In this document: one piece after another, positions 7,900 to 33,679 of the stretch | Layout: each line of letters opens with the position of its first letter | Numbering within the stretch: position 1 is the stretch's first letter | Assembly: GCA_003556605.1 (NCBI GenBank) | Contig: PWQX01000171.1 | Coordinates: forward strand, 1-33,679 | Direction of reading: 5' to 3' | Length of the DNA stretch: 33,679 nt | Source: Spirochaetaceae bacterium | GTDB lineage: Bacteria; Spirochaetota; Spirochaetia; DSM-27196; SLAA01 | Program-made: the position numbers and the translations under genes | Notes under the pieces: generated by a model | What the model was told of the DNA's origin: nothing | The model's input: the letters and a program-made list of their open reading frames with translations, nothing else | Databases searched by the model: none

Positions 7900-9012
7900 A
7901 TGAAGCAACTAGAATACGCCGAAAGCACCGCAACCGAGCCGCTGAATGCGTTTGCCGAAGTGCTTCATGCCGGCTACGAGAAATGTAATCCCAAGCACTA
8001 CGCAGCAATCCCACGCGACCATTACCTGCTGCACCTGGTCCTCGCCGGACAAGGGAAGGTGCGCGTCAGTTCAGACGTTTACAAGCTGCGCAGTCATCAG
8101 TGTTTTTTGATCCGTCCCGCTCAAGACCACGCCTACCAGGCCGACGCCGAGAACCCGTGGGAGTACATCTGGTTGGGGTTCGCGGGGGTTACCGATACGG
8201 TGCTGCACCAGACCTACGGGGTGCCCCCGCACGCCGCCGCCTTCACTCCGGCCTCCCCGGCCCGGCTTGAGTTCCACCTTCGCCGCATTCTCACCGCACT
8301 GCAGAGCCCCAACCCGCTCGAACAGTTGTACAGCCAAGCATTAGCCGTGCTGGCACTTGGGTGTCTGGGGGAGCACCACGGGGTTGCCGCCAACGGTCGT
8401 TCGCAGCCGGATTACGTCGACGAGGCGGTGTCGTACATTGAGTCGAACTACGCGAAGCTCAAGAACGTCCAATCGGTCGCCGATTACGTCGGGCTTGATC
8501 GCTCGTATTTTTCGAAGCTGTTCCAGGAGCGTACCGGAATCAGCGTCGGGAGCTTCCTCGCCGAAACGCGCATGAGCCACGCAAAACGCCTGCTGGTCGA
8601 CACCAATTACAAGGTCAACGTTATCGCCGAACTGGTGGGGTACGAGAATTACCAGTCGTTTGAGCGCCGATTCACCAGCCTCGTGGACATGTCGCCGACA
8701 GCGTTTCGCAGCCGGCCGGCCGGCGAGCGCGTGAAGGCCGGTAGGCTCACCACGACCGCCGCGAGAACACTCGCCGCGCCCCAGGCACGCACAATTGGCC
8801 CCAAGCCTATCGCAGCCGCACAGGACCCGCCGCCGGAGCCCCTGACACCGCCGGAATCGGATTCATCGGGCGGCCTGAGCGGTCACGACGAGCATACCTA
8901 CCGGGGCAAGTCTTTCGACCGCTCCGCCCCTCCCCAATCCGATGCGGCGGCGTTACTCAGCGGATCGCGCGGCTGCCCGTCATACATCAAACGCCGCAAA
9001 CGCCGCACCTGA
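7900..9012 (+). CDS. AraC-family transcriptional activator, MsmR/RafR-like
   Basis: Sugar-responsive DNA-binding protein, probably the activator of the alpha-galactoside genes around it. The product is 370 aa. Residues ~10-150 form an AraC-type cupin sensor domain with the MsmR-like stretch CFLIRPAQDHAYQADAENPW followed by EYIWLGFAG. Residues ~170-270 hold the two helix-turn-helix motifs: SVADYVGLDRSYFSKLFQER, then VIAELVGYENYQSFERRF and the closing MSPTAFR. A tail of about 100 residues follows that is rich in Pro, Ala, Ser and Arg. Normal family members end just after MSPTAFR, so the tail is odd. I chose the ATG at 7900 because it fits the family length, lies behind the terminator and follows a -10 box by 7 nt. 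A GTG at 7855 would lie upstream of that promoter. Its likely targets are the paired boxes at 4272-4310 and 10512-10550. Confidence 0.88.
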   Translation: MKQLEYAESTATEPLNAFAEVLHAGYEKCNPKHYAAIPRDHYLLHLVLAGQGKVRVSSDVYKLRSHQCFLIRPAQDHAYQADAENPWEYIWLGFAGVTDTVLHQTYGVPPHAAAFTPASPARLEFHLRRILTALQSPNPLEQLYSQALAVLALGCLGEHHGVAANGRSQPDYVDEAVSYIESNYAKLKNVQSVADYVGLDRSYFSKLFQERTGISVGSFLAETRMSHAKRLLVDTNYKVNVIAELVGYENYQSFERRFTSLVDMSPTAFRSRPAGERVKAGRLTTTAARTLAAPQARTIGPKPIAAAQDPPPEPLTPPESDSSGGLSGHDEHTYRGKSFDRSAPPQSDAAALLSGSRGCPSYIKRRKRRT

Positions 9013-9062
9013 ACTCTCGTCATATTGCACCGCTCGAAGTATCACGCGCTCATGGACGCCTG

Positions 9063-10400
9063 CTACCGGTAGAATCCTTCCGGAAGAAAATCGCGGTGCG
9101 CCTCGAACAGCTCGTCACACAGTGCCACGATATCGTCTAACGAGAGCTCGGCAGCCGTCAGCGGGTCTAACGCCGCGGCTTGATAGACGTTTGTCCGCTC
9201 CTGCGTTCGGGCTGCCTCCATCACTAGCATCTGCACATTGATATTGGTACGATTCAGCGCCGCGCATTGCTCGGGAAGAGCCCCAACGGCAACACCGTGT
9301 ACGCCGTTGTCGTCCACGAGGCAGGGGACTTCCACCACGCTGCCGGTTGGTAGGTTCGCGATATGCCCCGCGTTCAGTATGTTGCCGTGGACGCGGGTCG
9401 GTTCGCCGAAAACAATCCCCCTGATGATGTCGGCAGCGTACTCGATGGTACGCTCGTGCGCGATTGCCGGACTGGCAAGCAGCGCGGTGCGCATGTTGTC
9501 CCATTCTGCGACCTGCTCACGGCACCGGCGGGGATACTCATCCAACGGAATGCGGTAGCGGTCAATCAGTTCCGGGTAGCCGGTTTTGATCCACCACGGC
9601 GTGTACTCGGCGTTGTGCTCCGACGACTCGGTAGTGTAATACCCGAACGTGTTTAGAACCGACAGTCGCACGAGATCGTCGGTCTTGGTTTCCTCGCAGT
9701 GCTGCGCCGCCGCGACGATCTCTCGCGCCCTCCGCCGGGCCTCGGGGTAGATGTCCTGTTCACCGTCACGGAGGCTCAGCAACCACGCCATGTGATTGAT
9801 TCCGGCGACTTCCCAGCGGGGATCCTCGGCCTCGAGGTCAACCGCTTCCAGGAGCTCCTCGGCGCAGCGCTGCACCGAGTGGCACAGCCCCACTGTCTTG
9901 ACCGCAGTCTCACGCAGCATCGCCCCGGTGCAGATCGCCATCGGGTTGGTGTAGTTCAGAAACCAGGCGTTGGGGCAGACCGCGGCTATATCGGCGCCGA
10001 TCTCCCACATCGGCGGAACGGTACGCAACCCGCGGAAGATCCCGCCGATACCCAGCGTATCGCCGATCGTTTGGCGCAGTCCGTACTTCTTGGGAATCTC
10101 AAAGTCGCGCACCGTGCCCGGGTCATATCCTCCAACTTGAATAGCATTAATAACGAAGTCTGCACCACGCAAGGCATCACGGCGATTCTCAGGGCCCACA
10201 TAGCCGTATACGCTCGCCCGACCGGCATTGATGCCGGTGTTGAGCGTGCGAACCAGACGAAGCGAGTCGTCGAGACGCCCGGCATCAATATCGTAGAGCG
10301 CTATCTCAACATCGTGTAAACCGTCTTCGAGCAAGATATCGCCGATGATATTCTTCGCAAATACAGTGCTACCGGCCCCGATGAAGCTGATCTTTACCAT
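9063..10400 (-). CDS. melA: Alpha-galactosidase, glycoside hydrolase family 4 (MelA type)
   Basis: Cytoplasmic NAD- and Mn-dependent glycosidase that cleaves alpha-galactosides such as melibiose by an oxidation/elimination route. The product is 445 aa. It has an N-terminal Rossmann motif GAGSTVFAKNI, then NYTNPMA, the metal-binding Cys173 in GLCHSVQ and His203 in GINHMAW. The CHSVQ form is that of MelA/galacturonidase-type GH4 enzymes acting on unphosphorylated substrates, whereas 6-phosphoglycosidases have a different motif there. This agrees with an ABC importer rather than a PTS. I chose the ATG at 10400, not 10415, because GGAGG sits 5 nt before it. The gene has its own promoter with the same boxes as the importer operon and converges with the regulator gene, 50 bp apart. 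An alpha-galacturonidase activity is the main alternative. Confidence 0.88.
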   Translation of the reverse strand: MVKISFIGAGSTVFAKNIIGDILLEDGLHDVEIALYDIDAGRLDDSLRLVRTLNTGINAGRASVYGYVGPENRRDALRGADFVINAIQVGGYDPGTVRDFEIPKKYGLRQTIGDTLGIGGIFRGLRTVPPMWEIGADIAAVCPNAWFLNYTNPMAICTGAMLRETAVKTVGLCHSVQRCAEELLEAVDLEAEDPRWEVAGINHMAWLLSLRDGEQDIYPEARRRAREIVAAAQHCEETKTDDLVRLSVLNTFGYYTTESSEHNAEYTPWWIKTGYPELIDRYRIPLDEYPRRCREQVAEWDNMRTALLASPAIAHERTIEYAADIIRGIVFGEPTRVHGNILNAGHIANLPTGSVVEVPCLVDDNGVHGVAVGALPEQCAALNRTNINVQMLVMEAARTQERTNVYQAAALDPLTAAELSLDDIVALCDELFEAHRDFLPEGFYR

Positions 10401-10439
10401 CACATCCTCCGTCATTCCGCCGCTTCGAAAGTCCGCGCA

Positions 10440-10471
10440 ACAGCCGTACAGCCTATACAGCCTATACAGCC
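10440..10471. repeat. Four ACAGCC repeats in the GH4 leader
   Basis: ACAGCC occurs at 10440, 10448, 10457 and 10466 (period 8-9 bp; the last units read TATACAGCC). The array lies between the predicted GH4 transcription start (about 10505) and the start codon, so the mRNA would carry four GGCTGT units. It could be a protein site or simply a slipped repeat. Confidence 0.6.
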
Positions 10472-10511
10472 GCTAAACGATCACACGCTACGCCATATCG
10501 CGGCCGGGAGC

Positions 10512-10550
10512 TATGTAAATGTGTTTCTCTGCAACACGAAATGTGGTTTC
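10512..10550 (-). promoter_or_regulatory. Activator-type promoter of the GH4 alpha-galactosidase gene
   Basis: On the minus strand GAAACCACATTT begins at 10550. A second, imperfect half-site, GAAACACATTT, begins at 10527 and runs into TACATA (10517-10512), the -10 box. The distance from the first G of the upstream box to the -10 is 33 bp, identical to the importer promoter at 4272-4310, and TTTACATA is also identical. There is no good -35. The predicted leader is about 105 nt. Confidence 0.7.
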
Positions 10551-24224: not shown

Positions 24225-25055
24225 TCACTCATCAACACCTTCGCGCATCCCTAAGGAAGGGTCGTACAGGTTCGGCGAGCCGGCCGCCGTGCGAGTAGCC
24301 ACTGCGCGCACAAACCCGATGTAACGGCCTTGGTCGCGCTCCAGCGCTTCGGCGTCGGAGGGGAACACGCTCTTTCCTGCAAGCTCTAGCGCCTGCTCGA
24401 AATCGCGCCAATGACGCCAGCCCTCGGGCTGCGAATCAACGCGAACATCGCAGACGGTGCTGCTGCGGCTCCAGAGTCGCCGCCACCAGTCGGCGGTTTT
24501 AAAGCTCCAGCAGTCGTCTTCCCAGAACGCCTTACCGTTCGCCTGAGGGCGAACCAGGTGTTCCGGGACCGTTTCCTCAAACGCCCGCATCAGCCCGGGC
24601 ACGACCACGCCGATTACTCCTCCGGCACGAACAAATCGGCTCAGGTAACTGAGATACAGCTGGTCGGTACCGAAGTAGTGGTATGCGTCGATTGAGACAA
24701 CAGCGTCGAAGAAATCCTGAGGAAACGGCAATGCATGCGCCTCGGCCCGCAGAGGGCATACGGCGTCGGCCACCTCAGCGTCGCGCACCCGCCGCCAGTT
24801 GTGGTCCGGTGCAATCCACAGATCCGCCGCCCAGACGCGTACACCGAACTCTTTGGCCAAGAAGATGCTGCTGACGGCACGCCCGCACCCAAGATCAAGC
24901 ACCCGCATACCGCGTTCAAGCGGCAGCGCTTCAGTCAGCGATTCGGTCAACCATAACGCGTTGGGGCCCATTTGATTCTCAAGCACCCAAGCTGCTTCGT
25001 AGCGGTTTGATCTGGGAAACTCCGGCTTGTGCAGGAGCTGCTTCGCGTTGTTCAT
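24225..25055 (-). CDS. SAM-dependent methyltransferase, class I
   Basis: Soluble methyltransferase, 276 aa. Motif I reads MRVLDLGCGRAVSSIFLAKE (SAM-binding Gly-rich loop), followed by VWAADLW (acidic ribose-binding Asp), AEAHALPFPQDFFDAVVS (motifs II/III) and VRAGGVIGVVVPG. The N-terminal MGPNALWLTESL and the C-terminal part, rich in Trp, are shared with a widespread family of uncharacterised methyltransferases. The substrate is unknown. I chose the ATG at 25055 because GGAG lies 13-10 nt upstream and the family starts there. An upstream start at 25103 would add a basic 16-residue extension. Its 3' end converges with the aminotransferase gene (30 bp apart), and its start faces the signalling cassette across a 305-bp gap. 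Confidence 0.85.
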   Translation of the reverse strand: MNNAKQLLHKPEFPRSNRYEAAWVLENQMGPNALWLTESLTEALPLERGMRVLDLGCGRAVSSIFLAKEFGVRVWAADLWIAPDHNWRRVRDAEVADAVCPLRAEAHALPFPQDFFDAVVSIDAYHYFGTDQLYLSYLSRFVRAGGVIGVVVPGLMRAFEETVPEHLVRPQANGKAFWEDDCWSFKTADWWRRLWSRSSTVCDVRVDSQPEGWRHWRDFEQALELAGKSVFPSDAEALERDQGRYIGFVRAVATRTAAGSPNLYDPSLGMREGVDE

Positions 25056-25281
25056 GTGGCGCTTCTCCAATCGACAGGCTGATCGCCGTGCCCCTCGAGC
25101 CAACCGGCGACCGCGCTAGAGTTCTACCACGAAAATGGGGCCGCCGGCAGCTCTATTCCCCCCGGTTACGCAGCTTGACGCGGGAAGCGGGAAGCCCCTA
25201 CCCTGCGGGCAAGCCGCATGCCGTTCGAGACGATGCCGCGCTCGGGGACAGTTATTCACCGCCTTCGGCGCCCTATCGGTT

Positions 25282-25363
25282 GAGTTTTCGCGTATTGGAC
25301 GGCACAGCGGTCGAGTTTTCGTGCATTCCGCGCCGTAGTTATCGAGTTTTCGCGAGTTTTGTG
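25282..25363 (+). repeat. Helically phased direct repeats upstream of the cNMP/GGDEF cassette
   Basis: GAGTTTTCG followed by CG or TG begins at 25282, 25313 and 25344, spaced exactly 31 bp (about three turns). The copies agree over about 15 bp (consensus GAGTTTTCGYGNRTT). A further GAGTTTTGTG begins at 25354, 10 bp (one turn) after the third. All copies therefore face the same side of the helix. They fill the end of the 305-bp gap (25056-25360) between the methyltransferase and the signalling genes. In the rest of that gap I see no gene and no convincing promoter. A regulator acting as an oligomer is the simplest reading. Confidence 0.75.
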
Positions 25364-26404
25364 CTACCGTGTAAGCAAATACACCGTAGCTGGGGGGTTG
25401 CTCTGACTGAGAAGACCGTCGATAAGCTCGTCGAGACCGCTCAACTGCTGCGCACGGCGGACCTGTTCGCAGCACTTGACGAAGACGAGCTGACACTCGT
25501 AAGCGAAGCCAGTGAGATTGTAGATCTTGCCGAAGGATCGGTCGTCTTTCGTCCCGGTTCACGCGCCAATAACCTCTACATAATCGACAGCGGCCAAATC
25601 GTCATCCGCTCGGAGCTCGACGACCACTCGGGCCGCGATGTTGCCCGGTTCATCGCCGGTGAGACCTTCGGCGAGCTCGACCTCCTCGTTGAAGCGCCCC
25701 GCACTGCGTACGCCGTCGCCGCAACACCTGCCCGCGTAGTGCGCTTCCCGGCTGAGGATCGCAGTTTCGCCGAAGTGCTGCAGGCGCAACCGGAGATATC
25801 GGCACGGCTCCTGTTCAAGCTGCTCGGCAACATCGCCGGCAGGCTGCGCTCCACCAACAAACTGATCAGCGAAAACACTCCATGGGTCCGCGAGCTGCGG
25901 CGCCAAGTATACGTCGACAAGCTGACCGGGCTGTACAACGCAGCCTTCCTGAAAGAGCAGCTCGCATCATACCAAAGAGACCCGCGGCAGGCGTTCACTC
26001 TGCTGATGATGAAGCCCGACAACTTCAAGGAAATCAACGATACCTACGGCCATGAAGCCGGGGACGCCACGCTGAAACGGTTGGCCACCGTGTTCGCTAC
26101 GGCGGTGAAGGCCGCCGGAGAGGCGATTCGTTACCGAGGCAACGAGCTCGCCGGTTTAATGCCGGGAGAGTCACCGGCAGCAGCCGAAGCGCTCGCCCGT
26201 GATCTCGGTCATGCGGTGCGGACGATGGACATCAGCGACTGTACCGCCGGCGCCCAGGTCACGGTGACGGCCAGTTTCGGTATCGGCAGTTTTCCTGCAG
26301 ATCGAACACAGACCAACGCGTTAGTGACCGAAACCCACGCTCTACTCTTTGAAGCACGTGCGGCGGGCGGCGATCGGATACTACAGCTGGAGGCTGCTCG
26401 GTGA
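25361..26404 (+). CDS. Cyclic-nucleotide-binding domain protein with degenerate GGDEF domain
   Basis: Predicted soluble signalling protein of up to 347 aa. Residues ~25-145 form a CRP-like cNMP-binding domain, with the phosphate cassette GETFGELDLLVEAPRTAYAV. After a helical linker, residues ~180-345 form a GGDEF domain starting DKLTGLYN and containing PDNFKEINDTYGHEAGD. The signature GGDEF reads RGNEL and the first metal-binding Asp of the D-x-D-x-F-K motif is Lys, so diguanylate cyclase activity is very unlikely. It may be a c-di-GMP or GTP sensor or a partner subunit. The start is uncertain: GTG at 25361 has no ribosome-binding site, while a CTG at 25403 has GGGGGG 7 nt upstream. The stop overlaps the next gene's GTG, so the two are coupled. 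Confidence 0.82.
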   Translation: MLPCKQIHRSWGVALTEKTVDKLVETAQLLRTADLFAALDEDELTLVSEASEIVDLAEGSVVFRPGSRANNLYIIDSGQIVIRSELDDHSGRDVARFIAGETFGELDLLVEAPRTAYAVAATPARVVRFPAEDRSFAEVLQAQPEISARLLFKLLGNIAGRLRSTNKLISENTPWVRELRRQVYVDKLTGLYNAAFLKEQLASYQRDPRQAFTLLMMKPDNFKEINDTYGHEAGDATLKRLATVFATAVKAAGEAIRYRGNELAGLMPGESPAAAEALARDLGHAVRTMDISDCTAGAQVTVTASFGIGSFPADRTQTNALVTETHALLFEARAAGGDRILQLEAAR

Positions 26405-28584
26405 GTGCTGTGGACACTGTCGCACGCTTCCTCAAACAATTGGCGATCTTCGCCGACCTGTTGCCTGAGGAGCGCCGATACATCGCCGGTCTACTCTCGC
26501 GCGTGCCATTGGCGCGCAACGAGCGGCTATTCCGCGAAGGCGATCCCGGCGGTACGCTCTATGTCGTTCACACCGGCACGTGCGCGATCACCGTGCAGCT
26601 TCCCGACGGCCAGGAGCTGGAGATCACGCAGTTCACCGACGGCGACTTCTTCGGCGAGATGTCGATCTTTGAGGAAGCGCCGCGTTCGGCCGGCTGCTAC
26701 GCGCGCACCGACGCGGTGCTCTACGCGCTGACCGAAAGTGACTTTCATACGCTGATCGAGAATCGCCCGCCGTTAGCGATGAAGGTCATGTTCCGTATGC
26801 TCACCGCAACCGCGCAGCGACTGACAAACACGAACACCTTCCTGAGCGATATGGTGCAGTGGGGCGAGACGGCGCGCAAACGCGCGGTTACCGACGAGGC
26901 CACCGGCTTGTTCAATCGGCGATTTCTTGACGAAGCGATCGAGGAGCAGTTTCAGAAAACGCGGACGAACAACGGCCGTATTTCGGTGGTGATGCTCGAC
27001 CTTGACCACTTCAACGATATCAATGAGCAGTACGGGCACGAGGTCGGCGACGAAGTGATCAACGCAGTCGTACCGGTATTCCGTAAGCATTTCCGCGACA
27101 CCGATATCGTGGCCCGTTACGGCGGCGACGAGTTCACTGTACTACTCCCCGATACCGGCCCGGCCGAGGCGCTAGCGATCTGCAACGCCGTCCGACAAGA
27201 AGTTGCCCAGTTGCCTATCCTTGCCGCACGCGGCGGCACAATCAGCCGAGTGACTACCAGCCAAGGCATCGCTGCGTTCCCGGACCATGGAGCCACCGTG
27301 CCGCAAGTGAGGGAGACCGCCGACCACGCGCTGTACCGTGCCAAAGAGCAGGGCCGCAACCGGGTGGTCGTTGCAAACGGTGATCAGCACCCGGCGGCTG
27401 CACGAGCGACCGCACCCAAAACGAAGCGGGATATCACAACCATCGCGGAGAAGAACAGGGTGGTGCGCAACATCATCAATGCCTTCGTCACCCGCCGGAG
27501 CTTTGTAGTTGTGGGGCATGAGATCCCGGATGAGGATTGCGTCGCCTCGATGGTCGCGATAGGGCTACTGCTGAGCAAGCTCTCAAAGCCCGTATTCCTG
27601 TGCACCGCCGACGAGGTGCCGGTGCACTTTCGGTATCTCCTCGAAATCTGTCGCTTCAATTCGATTGACGTCAACACCCGCTGTGCCGAGATCGACGACA
27701 TGGTTGACACCGTAATCGTCTGTGATACCGCAAAGCCGGCGATGATTGAATCAACGCCGGCTGTCGATCGGCTGCTGGCAGACCCCACGGTGCTGAAGAT
27801 CGAAATCGACCATCACCTCGACGGCGACAGCTGCTACAATGGTGATGAGGGTTTCTGTTTGGTGGCCGCGGCCTCGTCGGCGGCCGAGCTGGTCGGCTAC
27901 CTCGGGTGCAAACTGAGCGCCGACCGCAGTATCTTGGCTTCGCACGAGATTGACGAAATCTTCACGCGCAACACAGTGCTGGCGATATTGACGGGAATCG
28001 TCGCTGATACCCAGATGGGCAAGTTCATCAAGAGCAAGAAGGAACGACGCCTGTACAAGATCTTCAGCGGCATGTTCAATCAGCTGTTGGCCGAGAAGAC
28101 CACTAAGCAGACCAACCTCTATAACATGGAACAAGTTTACGCAGAACTGCGGCGCCTGTCGGCCTCGCAGCAAGAGTTATACGACGAGCTGCTCGCACGC
28201 CGAACGCGCTTCGCCTCCGTTGCCTGTGTAGCGCTGGATGCCCGCGAGAGCCAGCGCATGTATTCGCGTTTCGACGTGGATACCACCGTAACCGTCGCGC
28301 GCACAGTAGCCGATGCGCTGGCCGAGGAGAGCGGCAGGCTCAGCCTTGTCGCGTATTACGATCACCCCAACGCTTCCAACCTGGTGCAGTTTCGCATGCG
28401 GCGCAGTGCGTCGTTCAGGGACGTGGATCTACGCGACTTGCTTGCAAGCCTCAAGATCGAAAACGGCGGCGGGCACGAAGGCGCGATCGGCTTCCGAATA
28501 CCGAAAACCCAGATCGGCGATTTCGACGCATTCGTCGCCGAGCTCATAAGACGGGTCGAGGCGGCGCTGCAGCCGACTCAGTAG
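26401..28584 (+). CDS. cNMP-binding / GGDEF / DHH-DHHA1 fusion protein
   Basis: Three nucleotide-signalling modules in one 727-aa soluble protein. Residues ~10-135 form a CRP-like cNMP-binding domain (DGDFFGEMSIFEEAPRSA). Residues ~165-320 form an apparently active diguanylate cyclase: DEATGLFNRR, DLDHFNDINEQYGHEVGD, an inhibitory-site RDTD at 232-235 and intact GGDEF at 241-245. Residues ~365-720 form a DHH-DHHA1 phosphodiesterase with the full metal set: H373, D377 and D379 in GHEIPDEDC, D442 in VIVCD, D470-H471-H472, D536 in GIVADT, and GGGH at 689-692. DHH-DHHA1 proteins cleave c-di-AMP, pApA or short RNAs. GdpP has GGDEF plus DHH-DHHA1, but its GGDEF is degenerate and it has membrane and PAS segments rather than a cNMP domain. 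The GTG start overlaps the upstream TGA. The 3' end overlaps the converging GH13-like gene by 7 bp. Confidence 0.9.
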   Translation: MSAVDTVARFLKQLAIFADLLPEERRYIAGLLSRVPLARNERLFREGDPGGTLYVVHTGTCAITVQLPDGQELEITQFTDGDFFGEMSIFEEAPRSAGCYARTDAVLYALTESDFHTLIENRPPLAMKVMFRMLTATAQRLTNTNTFLSDMVQWGETARKRAVTDEATGLFNRRFLDEAIEEQFQKTRTNNGRISVVMLDLDHFNDINEQYGHEVGDEVINAVVPVFRKHFRDTDIVARYGGDEFTVLLPDTGPAEALAICNAVRQEVAQLPILAARGGTISRVTTSQGIAAFPDHGATVPQVRETADHALYRAKEQGRNRVVVANGDQHPAAARATAPKTKRDITTIAEKNRVVRNIINAFVTRRSFVVVGHEIPDEDCVASMVAIGLLLSKLSKPVFLCTADEVPVHFRYLLEICRFNSIDVNTRCAEIDDMVDTVIVCDTAKPAMIESTPAVDRLLADPTVLKIEIDHHLDGDSCYNGDEGFCLVAAASSAAELVGYLGCKLSADRSILASHEIDEIFTRNTVLAILTGIVADTQMGKFIKSKKERRLYKIFSGMFNQLLAEKTTKQTNLYNMEQVYAELRRLSASQQELYDELLARRTRFASVACVALDARESQRMYSRFDVDTTVTVARTVADALAEESGRLSLVAYYDHPNASNLVQFRMRRSASFRDVDLRDLLASLKIENGGGHEGAIGFRIPKTQIGDFDAFVAELIRRVEAALQPTQ

Positions 28585-31625: not shown

Positions 31626-31654
31626 TTGTCTGCTGTTGTTTTGTCGGGTACACT
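31626..31654 (+). promoter_or_regulatory. Promoter of the envelope operon
   Basis: TTGTCT (31626-31631), a 17-nt spacer and TACACT (31649-31654) precede the first gene of the operon. The leader is about 45 nt and ends in a GGGGAGGG ribosome-binding site. It is divergent from the kinase promoter about 85 bp away. Confidence 0.55.
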
Positions 31655-31706
31655 TACGGCACAGTGTTGCTGTGGCATGACATACCGAACGGGGAGGGCC
31701 TTCAAG

Positions 31707-32159
31707 GTGAGAAAGCAATGTCTTGGTCTGTTGGTGTTTGCTTTGATGACCACGAGCCTCGTGGCGCAATCCAATCAAACACTCGATGATATTCTCGCGG
31801 CGCACGAGGCCTCATACGGACAGGCTGCCTACCTGCTGCTGTCGGCGCGCGGCATGATCGGCGAAGAGGCCGACTACGCTGCTGCGGTTGACGCGCTGCA
31901 GGCGGCGGGCATGGCCATTGAGCAGCGCGGTGTCAACGAAGCGATAAACCTCGGCGAGTACGTGTTCCTCGTCCAGCAGCTGTTCGACCTTCCGCGCGGG
32001 GTGCTTGGGTCGCTGCTCGGCGGACCGCGCTATGCAACCCGTGACCTGCGCTTTCTGCGCATCGTACAGGGGCGCTCGTACCCCAACATGAGTATCTCCG
32101 GTGAGCGGATGATGCGGATCCTTGGCCGTACGTTGGCCTATAAGGACGGTGTGTTGTGA
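31707..32159 (+). CDS. Small exported protein of a FecR-linked envelope operon
   Basis: I do not recognise a named family. The 150-aa product starts with a signal peptide (MRKQ, then a hydrophobic core, cleavage probably after SLVAQ). The mature part has two helical stretches: DILAAHEASYGQAAYLLLSA with GMIGEEADYAAAVDALQAAG, and then NLGEYVFLVQQLFDLPRGVL, GGPRYATRDLRFL and a final ISGERMMRILGR. The spacing of hydrophobic and Gly/Ala positions loosely recalls S-layer-homology-like repeats, which is only a guess. The GTG at 31707 is chosen because GGGGAGGG stands 8 nt upstream and because it begins a proper signal peptide. The frame runs open far upstream only as the antisense of other genes. 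Its stop overlaps the next gene's GTG start, so the two are coupled. Confidence 0.75.
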   Translation: MRKQCLGLLVFALMTTSLVAQSNQTLDDILAAHEASYGQAAYLLLSARGMIGEEADYAAAVDALQAAGMAIEQRGVNEAINLGEYVFLVQQLFDLPRGVLGSLLGGPRYATRDLRFLRIVQGRSYPNMSISGERMMRILGRTLAYKDGVL

Positions 32160-33460
32160 GCCGGGCGCTTCGATGGCGGGCGTCGTTCGTGGCGGCCCTC
32201 GCGATGCTGGCGCTGGTAGCGTTTGACACCCGAGCCTACGCGCTGGACGGCGCCGACTGGGGCGTAACCATAGACAGCGCGACCACGATGCGGCGCAGTC
32301 GGGAGCTTGATGATACCGACTGGGAGCAGCGCATCCGCGCTGCCCTGTGGGCCGAAGCCTTTTGGCAACTGTATCACGACGGTACGCTTACGGTGACGGC
32401 CGAGGGCAGCTATACCTACTCGGACGATCGCGATTACCTGTTCGACGTCGACCGCCTACGCATGGCGAGCGTAATGCCCGGCGCGCTGACTCCCGATACG
32501 GTTCTGAGCACCACGCTCGGACGCTTCGTGTTCCGCGATCCCACCGGCACGGTGCTCAGCCACGTGGCCGACGGCGTGAGGATCGCGCAGGCAGGCAGCG
32601 CGGTGGAGGTGGAGCTTTCGGGGGCATACACAGGACTGCTGCTGAACCCGTCCTCGAGCATCCGTATGTCGGCCGCCGATATCGCCGAGGACGATGACGA
32701 TGACGAGCACTTCGGGCCGCGGCGAATCCTGGGTCAGCTGGAGCTGCGGCTGCCGGATCTCCCGGGCCGGCAGCGCGTTGCGGCGGCGCTCCTGGCGCAG
32801 CGGGACCTGCGCGACGCCGACGACACCGAAGACACCGTCAACTCGCAGTACTACACGCTGTTCGGCGCAGGGCCCCTATTCGCAAACGCCTACCACAGCA
32901 CCTTCGTAACGCTCGCAACACTGCAAACGGAGAGAGGCGACGATGATGAGAGCCTCACTGCGCTGTCGGCGGGTACGCGCCTGCGGTACCTGCGCGAGGA
33001 CTGGTTGGCGTCACGTTTCGGTATCGCCGTGCTGTACGGCTCGGGTCCGGGCGATAAGCTCGACCGGTTTCTGCCGATAACGCAGCCGCCGACCGGCACG
33101 GTGTTCCAGCCCAGAATCGCGAACCTGCTGACGTTCGGGGCGAGCTACGCGTTGCGTCCTTGGATCGAGCACAGCGCGCTCACCGCGCAGAACGTGGAGT
33201 TCGGTGCGGGCGCACGCGTATTCCTGCGCGCCCAAGACGACAGCGGCATTGAAACCGGCGGCCTGCTCGCGGGCGCGCTCGTGGACCCGGACTCGTCCAA
33301 GCGCTACCTCGGGACCGAGCTCGAGCTCGCGTTGCGCGCGCGGCTTCTGCCGGACTTGGGCGCTTCGCTGACCGGTGGAATGTTTTTGCCCGGCGATTCG
33401 CTGGGAGACGATGCCGAACCGGAGTACTTGGCTCGCTTCGAGCTGTCGCTGAGCCTGTAA
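32156..33460 (+). CDS. Exported beta-barrel-like protein (predicted outer membrane)
   Basis: Protein of 434 aa with a signal peptide (core ASFVAALAMLALVAF, cleavage likely after RAYA) and no cysteine lipobox. The mature part is built of short alternating polar/non-polar strands, such as GTLTVTAEGSYTYSDD, SAVEVELSGAYTGLLL, LTFGASYALRPW and EFGAGARVFLR. It ends in ARFELSLSL, in the manner of an outer-membrane beta-barrel strand although it lacks a terminal Phe. Acidic loops such as AEDDDDDEHFG are seen. It is probably an outer-membrane protein associated with the FecR-domain protein encoded next. The GTG start overlaps the upstream TGA, with AAGGA 7 nt before it. No family name can be given. 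Confidence 0.75.
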   Translation: MSRALRWRASFVAALAMLALVAFDTRAYALDGADWGVTIDSATTMRRSRELDDTDWEQRIRAALWAEAFWQLYHDGTLTVTAEGSYTYSDDRDYLFDVDRLRMASVMPGALTPDTVLSTTLGRFVFRDPTGTVLSHVADGVRIAQAGSAVEVELSGAYTGLLLNPSSSIRMSAADIAEDDDDDEHFGPRRILGQLELRLPDLPGRQRVAAALLAQRDLRDADDTEDTVNSQYYTLFGAGPLFANAYHSTFVTLATLQTERGDDDESLTALSAGTRLRYLREDWLASRFGIAVLYGSGPGDKLDRFLPITQPPTGTVFQPRIANLLTFGASYALRPWIEHSALTAQNVEFGAGARVFLRAQDDSGIETGGLLAGALVDPDSSKRYLGTELELALRARLLPDLGASLTGGMFLPGDSLGDDAEPEYLARFELSLSL

Positions 33461-33472
33461 GGAGAAGCACAG

Positions 33473-33679
33473 ATGAAACAATCGTTCATCCTGGTTATAG
33501 TTCTGATAGTTCTGACGGTGCTTGCTCCGGCGGCGTGGGGCCAACCTGCGGCGCGGGTGAGCACGCTGACCGGAAGGGTGGAGTACCGCGCGGCGCCGCG
33601 CGCGGCGTGGCAGCCGGTAACGGCGGGGATGCAACTGCCACTTGGCGCGACGATCTCCACGGGGTTCGGAGCGCAGGCA
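33473..33679 (+). CDS. FecR-domain protein (3' end outside window)
   Basis: Only the first 69 residues are in the window. A signal peptide (MKQSFILVIVLIVLTVLAPA, cleavage likely after AWGQ) is followed by the start of a FecR domain: ARVSTLTGRVEYR, then WQPVTAGMQLPLGATISTGF. This is the usual pattern in which a Gly is followed by a beta strand, then G-x-x-L-x-x-GA-x-I-x-TG. FecR domains of this kind are periplasmic or surface modules in spirochaetes and other Gram-negatives and need not be iron regulators. It starts 12 bp after the beta-barrel gene, with GGAG 8 nt before the ATG, and is the third gene of that operon. Confidence 0.85.
   Translation, partial: MKQSFILVIVLIVLTVLAPAAWGQPAARVSTLTGRVEYRAAPRAAWQPVTAGMQLPLGATISTGFGAQA

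Follow-up and report, generated by a model that had tools for sequence, protein, structure and literature searches.

The window analysed here, a 33,679-nucleotide stretch that makes up one complete contig (C83) of a Spirochaetaceae genome, carries at its right-hand end a coupled set of three genes encoding P1, P2 and a FecR-domain protein. We lean towards viewing this trio as the outer-envelope half of a signalling system that combines a FecR protein, an outer-membrane barrel and a CHASE2 adenylate cyclase. It reads as a split, SLH-bearing version of a kind of system known from other bacteria, duplicated in the lineage of the window. Predicted folds, gene order in 80 regions from relatives, the identity of the most frequent neighbour and a natural gene fusion are the evidence on which this reading is built.

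A coupled envelope operon at the contig end

The first-pass annotation described three exported products in tight succession, and this is confirmed by our analysis. Each open reading frame begins with a signal peptide. The P1 stop and the P2 start overlap by 4 nt (GTGA), and the third frame opens with an ATG at 33473, 12 nt past the P2 stop, has a GGAG box and stays open to the contig end (Table 1). A simple scan of the divergent intergenic region found no sigma-70-like site towards P1, and simple promoter and terminator scanning gave nothing useful in the P1 direction. Roughly 3 kb upstream of the trio, at window positions 25007-28584, are two consecutive genes for cNMP-binding and GGDEF proteins, the second of which also has DHH and DHHA1 domains; these are possible cAMP-to-c-di-GMP links, or simply lie nearby.

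Table 1. Features at the right-hand end of the window.
Feature	Coordinates	Strand	Description
Divergent intergenic region 5′ of P1	31476..31706		Covered by the simple promoter scan
P1	31707..32159	+	Exported 150-aa protein with signal peptide; GTG start preceded by GGGGAGGG; predicted SLH fold at about residues 25-148
P2	32156..33460	+	434 aa with signal peptide; GTG start; predicted 18-stranded outer-membrane AlgE-type beta-barrel
P2 long loop, residues 159-189	32630..32722	+	Acidic run EDDDDDE; extracellular by strand parity
FecR-domain protein, N-terminal 69 aa only	33473..33679	+	Cut by the contig end; assigned from the match in relatives

P1 adopts a predicted SLH fold

P1 had been annotated as a protein without a recognised family. 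This stands at the level of sequence, where Pfam, NCBIfam and PDB sequence searches gave no convincing family and only chance-level rows, Pfam SLH matched 0 of 23 P1 members (E up to 1), and hmmsearch of PDB sequences with P1 returned no SLH chain. However, the structural model (pLDDT 92.7, built from 16 sequences) provides a fold. The first 14 rows of a Foldseek search with it were all SLH (E 0.037-0.71, probability 0.82-1.00), and the structural matches include the SLH domains of Sap and SpaA. Compared with the PDB by a method in which helical models may reach Z 13 through a common arrangement, P1 scored Z 11.2-11.8 against 13 SLH entries (best 11.8, with 6bt4) and Z 8.7 against an S-layer cytochrome, in alignments spanning 102-125 residues, whereas the first unrelated row scored 2.8. 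We trust the assignment because of this wide gap between the SLH matches and unrelated rows. As judged from the model, P1 carries an SLH fold that has diverged from the SLH sequence signature. Internal repeats in P1 were not supported by hhalign (best E 0.04). P1 is probably periplasmic, where it would contact the cell wall and P2.

P2 is a predicted AlgE-type barrel

For P2, the first-pass annotation proposed a strand-rich, outer-membrane-like protein with a very acidic loop. Both features are real, although the protein also reaches a named family, passing Pfam Alginate_exp with 26.6 bits against a cut-off of 25.2, and the acidity is not family-wide. The P2 model has 18 strands (pLDDT 84.7), and its best structural match is AlgE, the barrel of Pseudomonas aeruginosa alginate export (Z 32.0 over 364 residues, rmsd 3.4). 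The SLH-porin OmpM1 of Veillonella is also among the matches, with Z 18.6. On this modelling, P2 is an 18-stranded outer-membrane barrel of the AlgE type. The likeness is one of structure: identity to AlgE is 15%, a PDB-sequence profile search with P2 found no AlgE, and no alginate genes were recognised near the trio. The acidic stretch AEDDDDDEHFGPR is present at about residues 177-189, but loop 159-189 averages 15% D/E over 128 sequences, and we rejected the acidic loop as a key feature of the family. In the same 128 sequences the mean information of loops 159-189, 128-134 and 296-323 is 1.51, 1.90 and 1.36 bits, making them about as conserved as the strands (1.41 bits).

The trio is widespread in spirochaetes and duplicated in this lineage

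Homologues of P1 occur in 45 of 61 relatives and homologues of P2 likewise in 45 of 61, the window's own genome included in both counts, with 1-6 copies of P2 per genome. In a draw of 392 genomes across the phylum, P1 was found in 159 and P2 in 151. Among named genomes, a scan located 15 P1 loci, every one in a spirochaete; carriers include Alkalispirochaeta alkalica DSM 8900 and Candidatus Marispirochaeta associata (region L074). The window's genome has two P2 genes, one on C83 and the other on contig C119. In the P2 tree, the window copy pairs with the copies in regions L003 and L004 (support 0.992), which have the order P1-P2-FecR-lipoprotein and no CHASE2 neighbour. The window's trio reads as a duplicate copy within its lineage. 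In one relative (G344, region L200), two trios stand in tandem within a single 20-kb region.

CHASE2 cyclases are the usual neighbours of the trio

We surveyed gene order in 80 regions fetched around P1 places listed in the phylum search. This is not a random sample: 40 regions were hand-picked with a preference for long contigs, 40 were taken down the list of P1 places, and several genomes contribute more than one region. P2 lies directly downstream of P1 in at least 75 regions. Five regions failed this rule (L107, L125, L179, L190 and L213), but P2 is nevertheless listed in L107, L179 and L213, and L190 holds a P1-P2 fusion, which makes 75 a minimum. The ordered trio P1-P2-FecR is present in 72 of the 80. 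Together, these two counts indicate that the coupling of the trio is more than chance.

The fusion, from genome G407 (L190:9646-11877), is a single 744-codon frame that connects a P1 domain at 104-251 (E 2.7e-37) to a P2 barrel at 393-742 (E 2.5e-36) through a proline-rich linker. A natural fusion of this type suggests that P1 and P2 most likely work together, and it supports their forming a complex.

A protein matching the CHASE2 cyclase P0004 adjoins the trio in 52 of the 80 regions, at most 500 bp from P1 in 43 of these and on the opposite strand in 46; CHASE2 was seen in none of the remaining 28. P0004, the one neighbour checked, exceeds the cut-offs for both CHASE2 and Guanylate_cyc, the make-up of a class III adenylate cyclase. 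Of the 392 phylum genomes, 263 contain CHASE2, with few matches in each (about 2-3 per ~3-Mb genome), and simple arithmetic, not simulation, puts the chance expectation for adjacency at about 2 in 80. We conclude that the trio is usually partnered by a CHASE2 class III cyclase rather than by a sigma factor. A. alkalica (region L073) is a named example of a CHASE2-linked trio. Two regions, L047 (G021, 8839-10260) and L046 (G015, 9163-10536), have a gene that looks GGDEF-like by eye between the trio and the cyclase.

The window's own trio has no adjacent CHASE2 gene. The full-length CHASE2 cyclase orthologue of its genome is on contig C160, and the 15.8 kb fetched of that contig contain no trio gene beside it. 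Around the window copy, the P2 tree shows no CHASE2-linked copy until the clade is widened to 28 members, of which 2 are linked; many loci in this clade are too short to tell.

The presence of a CHASE2 cyclase beside 52 of 80 trios points to signalling beyond a structural complex. The trio had been proposed to be an undescribed outer-envelope complex. A coupled and conserved envelope operon is well borne out, with the fusion as further support, but a solely structural role does not fit the frequent cyclase. A structural reading would make P1 and P2 a split SLH-porin that forms a pore and anchors the outer membrane on the cell wall, as in OmpM of Negativicutes or Omp-alpha/beta of Thermotoga. 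The FecR protein would then be an accessory, and the cyclase would only monitor or regulate. The SLH fold of P1 next to an 18-stranded barrel, the OmpM1 match of P2 and the G407 fusion all agree with this; OmpM presumably has an SLH domain, and its domain order would then be the same as that of the fusion. Nevertheless, we regard it as rather unlikely. FecR (72/80) and the CHASE2 cyclase (52/80) exceed the needs of a plain tether, P2 is nearer to AlgE than to OmpM1, and P1 has no recognised SLH sequence motifs. The multiple P2 copies per genome, several of them diverged, suit specialised rather than bulk porins. The trio also differs from OmpM1 in usually dividing the two parts between two genes, in its diverged SLH and in having FecR and cyclase neighbours.

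The FecR protein and the gene that follows it

The 69-aa stub at the contig end gave no FecR match in domain searches and is too short to be judged alone. It is 52% identical over 62 aa to the N-terminus of P0005, the full FecR protein of a close relative, and the full-length homologues P0005 and P0006 exceed the Pfam FecR cut-off, which bears out the original naming of the third product as a FecR-domain protein cut by the window. Past position 33679 the sequence can be followed in part. Contig C250 of the same genome (4,238 bp) has at its end 32 aa that match the C-terminus of FecR (61%) and then a lipoprotein gene, whose product is 42% identical over its whole length to the lipoprotein of the relative. 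Because this FecR-like tail and lipoprotein are arranged as in the closest relatives, C250 probably continues C83, the two contigs being separated by the missing middle part of FecR. Beyond the lipoprotein, C250 encodes two products that by eye are an oxidoreductase and, before it, a DMT-type permease. The same genome has a different FecR-domain protein on contig C263 (L226:8872-10761), with PEGA and ankyrin matches.

An open reading frame with a lipobox follows FecR in 26 of the 80 regions, whereas of 642 other genes from these regions 50 are followed by one; by eye, a Cys-lipoprotein directly after FecR is commoner in close relatives. The lipoproteins range from 160 to >1,300 aa and are not one family by Pfam. 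Although enriched, at 26/80 the lipoprotein was rejected as a universal fourth gene. Its position could mean that the AlgE-like barrel serves to secrete the lipoprotein, or a polysaccharide, or to display it on the surface, with P1 and FecR as periplasmic factors. AlgE is itself an exporter, and C250 repeats the arrangement of the close relatives. We think this unlikely, since 54 of the 80 regions lack such a lipoprotein by the lipobox test, the lipoproteins vary too widely in length and family, the trio has no recognisable polysaccharide genes beside it, and the cyclase is left unexplained.

A classical iron-signalling system of the FecIR type, its sigma factor and TonB receptor encoded elsewhere, might be suggested by the FecR domain of the full-length homologues but is very improbable, as the first-pass annotation had it. 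Inspection by eye of the open reading frames next to the trio in the near relatives read recognised no ECF sigma factor or TonB-dependent receptor, nor any Fec locus, sigma factor or TonB receptor on the 4.2 kb of C250. The FecR protein is exported and has no apparent anti-sigma part on the cytoplasmic side, and the frequent partner is a CHASE2 cyclase.

Related systems in other bacteria

The term "undescribed" needs qualification, as similar sets of FecR, outer-membrane and CHASE2 proteins have been published for Campylobacterota, Burkholderia and Sinorhizobium. Judged by analogy, the nearest studied relative of the spirochaete set is NsrA-CyaK of Sinorhizobium meliloti. NsrA is an outer-membrane beta-barrel receptor that is reported to perceive the signal for cAMP production by CyaK and CyaD, both CHASE2 cyclases (PMC7529298). 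We found that an S. meliloti plasmid protein encoded beside a CHASE2 cyclase has a FecR domain (2.8e-15) and TPRs, and record CP140934.1 names this pair nsrA and cyaK. The C-terminal barrel of NsrA is visible by eye and is given in the paper. As at the trio loci, a FecR domain, an outer-membrane barrel and a CHASE2 class III cyclase are encoded side by side. However, NsrA holds FecR, TPRs and barrel in one polypeptide of ~1,220 aa, whereas spirochaetes have separate genes for barrel and FecR and add the SLH-fold gene, and the window's copy has no adjacent cyclase. A finding that goes against our model is that a separate S. meliloti FecR gene near cyaD1, smc02177, is reported as dispensable for signal perception (PMC5498481).

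In Campylobacterota, a CHASE2 adenylate cyclase is clustered with a FecR-domain outer-membrane protein; the cluster also has a phosphodiesterase and a TPR protein, and the sections of the paper we drew on mention no SLH-fold protein (PMC9239204). The Burkholderia BiofilmReg operon places a LysM-FecR protein beside a CHASE2 sensor kinase, and is thus similar in having FecR and a cell-wall-binding module (LysM) adjoining a CHASE2 sensor. It signals through a histidine kinase and response regulator instead of a cyclase, and a barrel goes unmentioned in the sections drawn on (PMC5192318). On plasmids of Paracoccus and Shinella, the gene for a FecR protein immediately precedes that for a CHASE2 cyclase. 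These FecR proteins (L172:3079-5046 and L173:2513-5062, respectively) have sub-cut-off C-terminal matches to TbpB/FHBP-like barrels and could be subject to Slam-type surface export; their genes are preceded by those of TPR proteins, of which the Shinella one has a weak beta-barrel match.

A model for envelope signalling to cAMP

In the signalling system that we favour, P2 would sit in the outer membrane, and P1 would be its SLH-fold partner, probably periplasmic and in contact with both P2 and the wall. As a periplasmic relay, FecR would be the third component. The trio may in this way pass an external or envelope cue, whatever its ligand, inwards to a class III adenylate cyclase through the CHASE2 domain that this enzyme has in the periplasm, and the level of cAMP in the cytoplasm would change in response. 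The duplicate trio of the window's genome, with its Cys-lipoprotein, may act in trans on the C160 cyclase or have been re-purposed. The gene order, the neighbourhood, the P1-P2 fusion and the folds of the models come from computation; the signalling role and its direction, the ligand, the contacts with the cell wall and between the proteins, and the action in trans are what we infer from them. The similar gene sets of Sinorhizobium, Campylobacterota, Burkholderia, Paracoccus and Shinella are independent parallels in favour of the model. Against it are the window's copy without an adjacent CHASE2 gene, the scarcity of CHASE2-linked copies around it on the P2 tree, the 28 of 80 regions without CHASE2 and the lack of SLH sequence evidence in P1.

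We found no literature on this spirochaete gene set in a search made mainly outside subscription papers, and to our knowledge spirochaete sensing at or beyond the outer membrane that leads to cAMP has been little explored. The analysis yields a conserved and testable four-gene unit of CHASE2 cyclase, SLH-fold protein, AlgE-type barrel and FecR protein that occurs in cultured species, A. alkalica among them, and gives names to two protein families that had no useful annotation. It also suggests a rule across phyla in which FecR, together with an envelope-anchored or outer-membrane partner, feeds a CHASE2 enzyme. More speculatively, and with a low chance of being correct in full, many spirochaetes would monitor the condition of their surface with three proteins that control one CHASE2 adenylate cyclase: an SLH-fold protein probing the wall, an AlgE-like barrel and FecR as the relay. 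In the lineage of the window, duplication of the sensor half would have produced several cassettes, all with surface lipoproteins of their own, and these would signal in trans to one cyclase encoded apart from them. If true, the surface receptors of these spirochaetes would form a modular array whose signals converge on cAMP.
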